Assembly (NCBI RefSeq): GCF_014635245.1 | Contig: NZ_BMCP01000001.1 | Span: 1,240,001-1,304,000, forward strand | Origin: Agaricicola taiwanensis | Lineage (GTDB): Bacteria > Pseudomonadota > Alphaproteobacteria > Rhizobiales > Methylopilaceae | Length of the DNA stretch: 64,000 nt | Direction of reading: 5' to 3' | In this document: piece after piece, positions 25,584-26,435 of the stretch | How the letters are laid out: each line of letters begins with the position of its first letter | How positions within the stretch are numbered: the stretch's first letter is position 1 | Made by a program: the position numbers and the translations under genes | The notes under the pieces: generated by a model | The model's database searches: none | Told to the model about the DNA's origin: nothing | Seen by the model: the letters and a program-made list of their open reading frames with translations, nothing else

Positions 25584-26435
25584 ATGACAAGGACACCGTA
25601 CCGCGTTCTCGACCTCTTCAGCGGCATTGGCGGGTTCACCTTGGGTCTTGAACGGACCGGTGGCTTCAAGACGGTCGCCTTCTGCGAGATCAACCCGGAC
25701 CGACAAGCCGACCTGCGCAGCATTTGGCCAGGCGTGCCGGTCTACGACGACGTGCGGAGAATAACGGCCGCGGATGTGGGAGATATTGATGTCATCACGG
25801 GTGGCTTCCCTTGCCAAGATATCTCCGCTGCTGGAAAGCGGGCAGGCATCGCAGGAGAGCGGACAGGCCTTTTTTCAGAGATCATTCGACTGGCTGGCGA
25901 GCTACGACCCAGCTTCATCATCCTGGAGAACAGCGCAGACCTGCTTACTGGAGACGGGGGAGCTTGGGCGCGACACGTTTTCGGGCAGCTGGCCGCGCTC
26001 GGGTACGATATCGAGTGGCACGTTATACCGGCTTCCGGACTTGGTGCCCCGCACGTCCGAGAAAGAGTCTGGATCATTGCTACCCACGCCGGTAGCGGCT
26101 TCCAAGAGAACAGGCGGCACAAGCTCTATCTTGGACGGCGGTTCACACGCTCGGGCGAAGCTGCGGCGATTGTTGCCCACCATCACCGTGAACGGGAACT
26201 ACAATCAGGTTGGATCTTCGTTGACGAGCGGGGACGGGTTGTACACGACCCTGAACGCGCTTGGCCTGAAGGCTGGATCGAAAAGCTGTCATCGCTTCGC
26301 AGCCTGGATGATGGGCTACCCGCAGGACTGGCTACTGCCGCGGCCCACCGCTTCGGAAACACTGTCGTCCCCCAGATCCCCGAGCTTATAGGCCGCGCCA
26401 TCCTCGCAGCAGATCAACGGAGCATAGCCGCATGA
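25584..26435 (+). CDS. DNA (cytosine-5) methyltransferase
   Basis: 283 aa. All core motifs are seen: motif I DLFSGIGGFTLGLE (residues 10-23), motif IV GGFPCQDIS with catalytic Cys77, motif VI region ENSADLL, motif VIII RERVWIIA and motif X RFGNTVVPQIPELIG. The variable target-recognition part between VIII and X is short. It modifies phage or host DNA, perhaps against restriction. Its 3' two thirds overlap another long frame at 25774-26391. Confidence 0.93.
   Translation: MTRTPYRVLDLFSGIGGFTLGLERTGGFKTVAFCEINPDRQADLRSIWPGVPVYDDVRRITAADVGDIDVITGGFPCQDISAAGKRAGIAGERTGLFSEIIRLAGELRPSFIILENSADLLTGDGGAWARHVFGQLAALGYDIEWHVIPASGLGAPHVRERVWIIATHAGSGFQENRRHKLYLGRRFTRSGEAAAIVAHHHRERELQSGWIFVDERGRVVHDPERAWPEGWIEKLSSLRSLDDGLPAGLATAAAHRFGNTVVPQIPELIGRAILAADQRSIAA
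25774..26391 (+). CDS. Candidate overprinted protein inside the methyltransferase gene
   Basis: 205 aa in the +1 frame relative to the methyltransferase, open for 618 bp. It contains FDWLASYDPASSSWRTAQ, SWPRSGTISSGTLYRLPDL, LLPTP, TVNGNYN and AAWMMGYPQDW. From memory these are motifs of a family of stand-alone phage proteins often annotated beside cytosine methyltransferase genes. The ATG has no strong ribosome site. Either two functional proteins share this DNA or the second frame is a fossil related to that family. Confidence 0.4.
   Translation: MWEILMSSRVASLAKISPLLESGQASQESGQAFFQRSFDWLASYDPASSSWRTAQTCLLETGELGRDTFSGSWPRSGTISSGTLYRLPDLVPRTSEKESGSLLPTPVAASKRTGGTSSILDGGSHARAKLRRLLPTITVNGNYNQVGSSLTSGDGLYTTLNALGLKAGSKSCHRFAAWMMGYPQDWLLPRPTASETLSSPRSPSL

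Follow-up and report, generated by a model that had tools for sequence, protein, structure and literature searches.

Features of the locus

The window is the whole stretch of Agaricicola taiwanensis DNA that was analyzed (64,000 nucleotides; contig NZ_BMCP01000001.1, positions 1,240,001 to 1,304,000). It contains a prophage in which genes for a replication initiation protein and a primase/helicase lie just upstream, and genes for terminase and portal proteins lie downstream, of two overlapping reading frames, here termed alpha (frame 0) and beta (+1 frame). The initial annotation described both frames as open, which was confirmed: alpha runs from the ATG at 25584 to the stop codon ending at 26435, and the +1 frame is free of stops over 25765-26388. 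The features of the locus are as follows.

ATG 25584 to stop 26435, plus strand: alpha (283 aa), large subunit of a C5-cytosine methyltransferase; motifs I-VIII and X are present, motif IX is missing (PF00145, phrog_363, AF2)
25605..25637, plus strand: VLDLFSGIGGF, motif I of alpha, ahead of the beta gene
25774..25788, plus strand: stretch from an alternative, less likely in-frame start of beta (ATG 25774) upstream of ATG 25789 (in-frame TAG in L002)
25778..25782, plus strand: GGGAG, candidate ribosome-binding site for ATG 25789 (sequence)
25789..26391, plus strand: beta, overlapping gene in the +1 frame, 200 aa, proposed small subunit (phrog_1008, leave-out beta HMM, two-frame substitution rates)
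25800..25826, plus strand: alpha motif IV (GGFPCQDIS, which contains PCQ); the beta reading of the same DNA is VASLAKIS
in 25926-25946, plus strand: alpha ENS
25987..26007, plus strand: beta SWPRSGT; in alpha this DNA lies between motifs VI and VIII
26023-26061, plus strand: beta LYRLPDLVPRTSE
26043-26081, plus strand: alpha motif VIII, GAPHVRERVWIIA; the beta reading over 26043..26091 is LVPRTSEKESGSLLPTP
26071-26091, plus strand: beta GSLLPTP
26191-26205, plus strand: beta NGNYN
26305..26331, plus strand: beta motif-IX-like helix WMMGYPQDW, over alpha SLDDGLPAG ('DDG') (hhalign, AF2 helix 165-174, codon tests)
26346..26402, plus strand: alpha motif X, HRFGNTVVPQIPELIGRAI

The words first read in the second frame (SWPRSG, LYRLPDLVPRT, LPTP, GNYN and WMMGYPQDW) were all located in beta. 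The statement that the DNA for motif VIII doubles as the DNA for the LVPRT..LLPTP segment agrees with the coordinates, since 26043-26081 and 26023-26091 overlap. The start of beta was revised: ATG 25789 is most likely used rather than ATG 25774, as first proposed, because GGAG lies upstream of it and because in locus L002 the matching ATG stands directly after an in-frame TAG. No clear Shine-Dalgarno match was seen at the beta start of L002 itself. Across 176 loci, 5-nt Shine-Dalgarno matches were found near the beta start in 79, as against 25% in shuffles.

Motif content of alpha

Alpha matched PF00145 (E 1e-46), covering only positions 1-167 of the 324 of the profile, and phrog_363 (E 5e-66). 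The AF2 model of alpha had a mean pLDDT of 78.5; it was confident at residues 1-170 and at the motif X helix, and fell below 50 over residues 179-210 and 233-246. Compared with the structure of M.HhaI, the model gave a Z score of 26.1 and an rmsd of 2.3, with 204 residues aligned of 327.

In classical C5 methyltransferases motif IX sits between the variable region and motif X. The C-terminus of alpha paired with classical motif X alone (hhalign), and motif IX was not found in the alpha frame by PF00145 coverage, by hhalign or by comparison with the single-chain relative L178; alpha reads 'DDGLP' at that place. Motifs IV to X had all been assigned to this frame, and all but motif IX were recovered there. 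In a single-chain C5 methyltransferase one frame holds motif IX along with I-VIII and X; this is not so in alpha. The motif IX-like WMMGYPQDW is found in beta, exactly over the alpha 'DDG', and is the sole motif IX of loci of the window type. In L178 (1989-3041), LNPDWVEWLMGYP and motif X are both in frame 0, and PF00145 was aligned over positions 2-322 of 324. The +1 frame of L178 is still beta-like in its N-terminal part (59 bits).

Profile matches of beta

Beta, scanned from 25774, matched phrog_1008 (E 2e-21, profile positions 38-164 of 329), in line with the earlier suggestion of a conserved protein, with homologs, in the second frame; in the source genome itself the match was E 1e-16. 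The phrog_1008 entry ('DNA methyltransferase', PHROGs v4) is, as shown, silent on overlap. Pfam and NCBIfam scans of beta gave no match. A PDB sequence search gave a single match at chance level with beta (E 0.15) and no match with Firecracker gp5. The AF2 model of beta alone was poor (pLDDT 60.9, pTM 0.27), its best part being around the motif-IX helix at residues 165-174; a Foldseek search of the PDB with this low-confidence model returned 0 matches and is uninformative on the fold.

Recoding, substitution and codon tests

The 200-codon beta frame remained open in 0 of 1000 codon shuffles of alpha and in 12 of 1000 recodings with the codon usage of neighboring genes. For scoring, a leave-out beta HMM was built without the window and L002. 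Window beta scored 125.3 bits, with maxima of 51.5 bits in 1000 codon shuffles and 70.9 bits in 1000 neighbor-usage recodings. Recodings that preserved alpha retained a mean of about 15 bits on the beta HMM; the window stands about 110 bits above that mean and 54 bits above the top of 2000 recodings. The N-terminal half of beta alone scored 91.8 bits (maximum of 500 shuffles, 53.2), and the C-terminal segment alone only 27.5 bits (shuffle maximum, 19.9). Among 80 viral loci, the N-terminal half of beta exceeded all 20 shuffles in 78. In six relatives of 39-53% GC, retrieved by beta, the beta region was open in 0, 0, 0, 2, 0 and 0 of 1000 shuffles.

Substitutions were counted between the window and L002, the closest relative found. 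Over the 576 nt of overlap the differences at alpha codon positions 1/2/3 numbered 30/9/29, and over the 205 nt read in alpha alone they numbered 17/17/39, so that the third-position rate was 29/192 in the overlap and 39/68 outside it (p 9e-11). L002 had been retrieved with short beta peptides, and the count was therefore repeated with the six query peptides masked; this left 471 nt of overlap with 27/9/32 differences and 190 nt outside it with 15/17/34, for a third-position p of 3e-6. The two-frame rates for the pair were dNN.050, dNS.175, dSN.211 and dSS.724. Since dNN, dNS and dSN are far below dSS, changes that alter either protein appear to have been avoided, and this pattern indicates that both frames are under purifying selection in the window and L002, as expected if the two frames encode two proteins, as was initially proposed. 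Pooled over 15 of 16 pairs (L262/L272 omitted), the rates were dNN.135, dNS.219, dSN.250 and dSS.780; these pairs share members or relatives and are not all independent, several are mosaic, and the distances are uncorrected. The contrast of NN with NS may partly stem from radical changes at alpha position 2.

Codon choice was scored in loci retrieved by alpha irrespective of beta status, where 46 of 158 distinct alphas carry the xDG motif that corresponds to 'DDG'. In these, aspartate at the motif was encoded by GAT and GAC in a ratio of 36:2, as against 294:463 elsewhere (p 1.5e-12), and alanine at the motif by GCT in 33 of 35 cases, as against 205 of 1188 elsewhere. W[LM]MG stands in the +1 frame of 39 of the 46. 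In a set of known beta loci, which is biased in that many were found by the WxMG pattern, 104 of 239 alphas had the motif, with GAT 88 : GAC 2 and W[LMI]MG in 97 of 104.

A chance open frame, an open frame driven by GC content and a by-product of alpha were each considered and rejected in view of the recoding tests, the shuffles and the openness of the frame in relatives of intermediate GC content. Beta is neither a product of chance nor a mere shadow of alpha.

Distribution of the overlap

The locus searches keep the best 80 of 222, 592, 580 and 594 confirmed places, numbers that are themselves lower bounds. With alpha as the only query, a beta-HMM match was found in the +1 frame in 80/80 viral and 64/80 genome loci (best 80 of each); some genome matches were weak, and several of these belong to the beta-prime family described below. 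Of 78 distinct viral genes, 77 had a beta score above that of every one of 30 shuffles (the exception is L139), as did 61 of 80 genome genes; L139 and the other 19 genome loci were not above their shuffles. Viral loci retrieved by beta had alpha beneath in 80/80 (best 80 of at least 222 confirmed places). The sets of loci overlap, as some IMG/VR contigs are in both the alpha- and the beta-fetched set, and some genes are repeated (L024/L041 and L428/L434, for example).

Within the host's order, 24 of 297 genomes, among them the source genome, matched phrog_1008. Alpha and beta were both present in 27 of the 29 host-order loci (L018-L046, a few of which repeat one gene), and the other 2 had no beta-HMM match. 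In the phylum, 46 of 398 genomes matched phrog_1008 at E 0.001, many of them weakly or with stops; the overlap was present in 29 of the 30 phylum loci retrieved, one of which is the window itself. A plasmid search returned 3 records.

The second frame had been likened to stand-alone proteins found beside dcm-type genes, and for the most part this did not hold. Every beta ORF of at least 40 bits (272/272) was paired, in the +1 relation, with a methyltransferase ORF; 265 had only that pairing and 7 an extra piece in another frame as well. These 272 come from all loci examined, many of them retrieved by beta or alpha as the best 80 per search. One weaker ORF does stand free: L261:4126-4692 (188 aa, 36.5 bits) lies just downstream of an alpha/beta pair and has no methyltransferase frame beneath it. 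It contains WKLRSTKSRRF, LLPTP and INPDFIAEMMGFPVGW, and matches its overlapped neighbor (50% over 24 aa, E 5e-7); stops abound in both of the other frames. Judged by its sequence, it is possibly a duplicated, freed small subunit.

Several loci depart from the usual arrangement. L187:133-1952 and L215:2020-3924 have two tandem alpha-like ORFs, each with a +1 match to the beta profile (the second of L215 is weak, 26 bits). In L015/L016 (2602-3380) the beta frame holds motifs I-IV and the alpha frame the remainder, with the switch at a G run, which could be an assembly error or slippage. Alpha or beta is broken by a stop or a frame change, or is split, in L254, L173, L292, L336 and L402 (L402 has IX-X in the beta frame); each of these five could reflect decay, sequencing error or a natural split. 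In Sulfitobacter phage phiGT1 (L324:2832-3560) a gene annotated in the record as an N4/N6-type methyltransferase lies just downstream of the alpha/beta pair.

Related +1 frames over complete methyltransferases

A conserved +1 ORF of about 150 aa, termed beta-prime, lies over motifs III-VIII of complete C5 methyltransferases and is without motif IX. Its hosts are mostly gut Firmicutes (L223, L228, L229, L231, L262, L269, L272 and L274); it is also present in Streptococcus phages (L321 and L322), and it corresponded to phrog_16143 in all four cases scanned. Held-out or non-training scores were above all 200 shuffles in 11 of 15 loci, the others being L255, L281, L276 and L286. In the L262/L269 pair the third-position rate was.31 in the overlap, as against.51 and.57 outside. 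The open frame of beta-prime is often of unremarkable length (in L220, 100 of 200 shuffles were as long). A third +1 type, beta-double-prime, lies over phage methyltransferases in 80/80 loci (the best 80 of a longer list). Its alignment with the beta profile gave prob 88 and E 3e-6, a similarity to which the common DNA position could add. Like beta, phrog_16143, beta-prime and beta-double-prime are in the +1 frame over roughly motifs III-VIII; they end in SLxDxLE..KYYLSxxA and have no motif IX. Because beta-prime lies over methyltransferases with an in-frame motif IX, supplying motif IX is not the sole role of the wider family.

Related sequence was also found without an overlap. L236:3889-4245 and L251:3889-4251 are in-frame C-terminal extensions of complete methyltransferases, with the other frames rich in stops. 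On the +1 frames of five phage methyltransferases, the HMM of this extension scored 44.4, 41.5, 38.9, 38.4 and 32.0 bits, and 300 shuffles of each gave at most 13.7, 8.3, 22.1, 8.2 and 9.4 bits; the five had been picked as tblastn matches of the extension, so that only the comparison with shuffles counts. The same HMM scored 17.3 bits in L322 (shuffles at most 9.2), a non-significant 4.6 bits in L321 and 0 bits on L324, which has a beta of the window type. Because of the last two results, beta and beta-double-prime are linked only by the profile comparison. Of 31 loci examined for the related domain, 27 were overlapped and 4 had it in frame 0 (some of the 31 are repeats, two of the 4 are L236 and L251 again, and one is L430); a third non-overlapped copy, in L433 (minus strand), is again a C-terminal methyltransferase extension. 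L430 has a weak, 18-bit match in frame 0 within a classical enzyme, where LxxxLE..KYY.S stands in frame just after motif VIII (hhalign prob 85); the beta-prime and beta-double-prime proteins therefore also seem to hold pieces of the enzyme's small domain.

Two phage loci have a further arrangement: in Cronobacter phage JK004 (L320:1370-3880) and Enterobacter phage CobraSix (L323:1457-3370, annotated as a putative N-6-adenine methyltransferase) the C5 ORF runs into an apparently unrelated C-terminal domain, and a +1 protein lies over the C5 part.

On balance, we think that these frames represent a general and old class of +1 genes over prokaryotic and phage C5 methyltransferases, in which pieces of the small domain have repeatedly moved among frame 0, the +1 gene and places outside the overlap; a domain that arose or was relocated by overprinting would then be among the commoner long overlapping genes of phages, and the freed copies in L236, L251 and L433 (C-terminal extensions) and L261 (a separate ORF) would be direct evidence of a real protein.

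Comparison with known two-polypeptide enzymes

The beta gene of M.EcoHK31I is likewise in another frame inside alpha, with a product of about 23 kDa, and the enzyme is part of a restriction-modification system; the window pair, by contrast, is placed among prophage replication and packaging genes. In window alpha and beta the large subunit has I-VIII and X, motif IX is only in the small one, and the small one is inside the large gene, in the +1 frame and under selection. M.EcoHK31I, a two-polypeptide C5 methyltransferase (YGGCCR), is divided in the same way, its large subunit carrying motifs I-VIII and X and its small one IX only, according to the available part of PMC3404938; the two are likened here by plan, not by sequence. 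The accessible text of PMC3439449 terms M.EcoHK31I naturally split.

M.AquI and the Corndog-type systems (Firecracker gp6/gp5, RemusLoopin gp34/35 and L210) resemble the window in having part of the small domain in a second polypeptide, and Corndog-type pairs also have their second gene lying over the first, in the +1 frame, with a beta that matches window beta. They differ in that alpha ends after motif VIII and IX and X are both in beta, as far as the partly available sources go. In the split type examined here (Corndog-type phages L007 and L010 and genome locus L210), motifs IX and X were found only in the +1 ORF. Comparison of split-type tails with classical IX-X tails (hhalign) gave prob 94.2 and E 1e-7, with LNPxxxEWLMG paired with RRLTPxExxRLQG. 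The window does not have the M.AquI plan, as its motif X is in alpha, at 26346-26402.

The overlap in Corndog phages has been noted in print, with two products, a frameshift, a hop or splicing left undecided, and the split methylase proteins were not seen there by mass spectrometry (PMC4351075, as excerpted). A different case, the insertion of an HNH gene in an alternate frame, is given in PMC11855218. Within the open-licence literature, in the parts of the texts available, no treatment of an alternate-frame gene over dcm was found beyond the papers cited here; the overlap is not described in the available parts of PMC2884959, PMC3706429, PMC5009743, PMC8227390, PMC12707154, PMC6456624, PMC4574080 or PMC3439449. 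The relationship was initially put forward as undescribed. To judge from these partial texts, the subunit split (M.EcoHK31I, PMC3404938) and the Corndog overlap (PMC4351075) were already known; what is new is the extent, the selection on both frames and the related +1 proteins over complete methyltransferases.

Discussion

The locus probably encodes a two-subunit C5-cytosine DNA methyltransferase on the plan of M.EcoHK31I, with an overlapping gene for the small subunit. Alpha would form the catalytic large domain (motifs I-VIII) and carry motif X. Translation of beta would start internally, at a +1-frame start codon within alpha, and beta would supply the motif-IX helix, the small-domain element that alpha is missing. 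Together the two would form a single active enzyme, with prophage and host DNA as targets of methylation. Such an enzyme is ordinary in kind and surprising in extent.

The initial annotation suggested that the family arose by overprinting of a methyltransferase. This fits the N-terminal half of beta, which is dual-coded with motifs IV-VIII; it does not fit the C-terminal part, which looks ancestral and displaced. The motif-IX part of beta is best seen, from the sequence comparisons, as ancestral methyltransferase sequence displaced into the +1 frame. A single-chain enzyme may have had its motif-IX part moved into that frame by a frameshift, motif X having stayed in frame 0 or returned to it; the new frame would then have been extended upstream by overprinting motifs IV-VIII, and the overprinted half (WRT..WPRSG..LLPTP) would later have come under selection of its own.

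An unlikely alternative is that beta is a real protein with another job, as a regulator, an inhibitor or a counter-defense factor, its likeness to motif IX being a relic. The presence of beta-prime and its relatives over complete methyltransferases, by which the family is not only a supplier of motif IX, speaks for this reading. Against it, the beta of the window type has the only motif IX, and W[LM]MG is kept in the +1 frame of most motif-bearing loci retrieved by alpha (39/46); where the related domain stands outside an overlap (L236, L251 and L433), all three copies are joined to a methyltransferase, and the free beta of L261 adjoins an alpha/beta pair.

We regard programmed frameshifting as less probable still. 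Ribosomes would pass from alpha to the +1 frame after motif VIII, fusing the C-terminus of beta to the N-terminus of alpha, a route that is among the options named in the available part of PMC4351075 and that agrees with L007, L010 and L210, where IX and X are only in the +1 ORF, and with the frame switch of L015/L016 at a G run. The N-terminal half of beta would be untranslated in such a fusion, yet it is under selection (91.8 bits against a shuffle maximum of 53.2; 78/80 viral loci), and two products are therefore favored over frameshifting. Starts matched by a Shine-Dalgarno sequence are enriched (79/176 against 25%), and the window type, with motif X back in frame 0, would require two shifts. 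M.EcoHK31I, moreover, is reported as two polypeptides in the portion of PMC3404938 available.

It is very improbable that alpha is the sole gene, with the +1 frame kept open and constrained by way of alpha's motifs and GC-rich codon usage: long open +1 frames are usual in GC-rich genes and some 15 bits on the beta HMM survive synonymous recoding, but the window lies 54 bits above the best of 2000 recodings, 77 of 78 viral loci exceed all 30 shuffles, the GAT preference (36:2 in alpha-fetched loci), the drop in synonymous rate and the openness at intermediate GC content contradict it, and L261 has kept a beta-like ORF without alpha beneath.

On the preferred reading, that of a two-subunit methyltransferase, both subunits of the enzyme seem to be encoded by a single locus, each in its own frame, and dcm-type loci with this plan number in the hundreds in viruses and bacteria. 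In several records that were inspected the overlap is annotated with one protein only, and where alpha alone is annotated, cloning only alpha may miss half of the enzyme. The result also bears on the question raised for Corndog phages, in the part of PMC4351075 available, of two products, frameshift, hop or splicing. Together, these loci are a natural collection of unusual depth in which the joint evolution of two proteins encoded by the same DNA could be measured.
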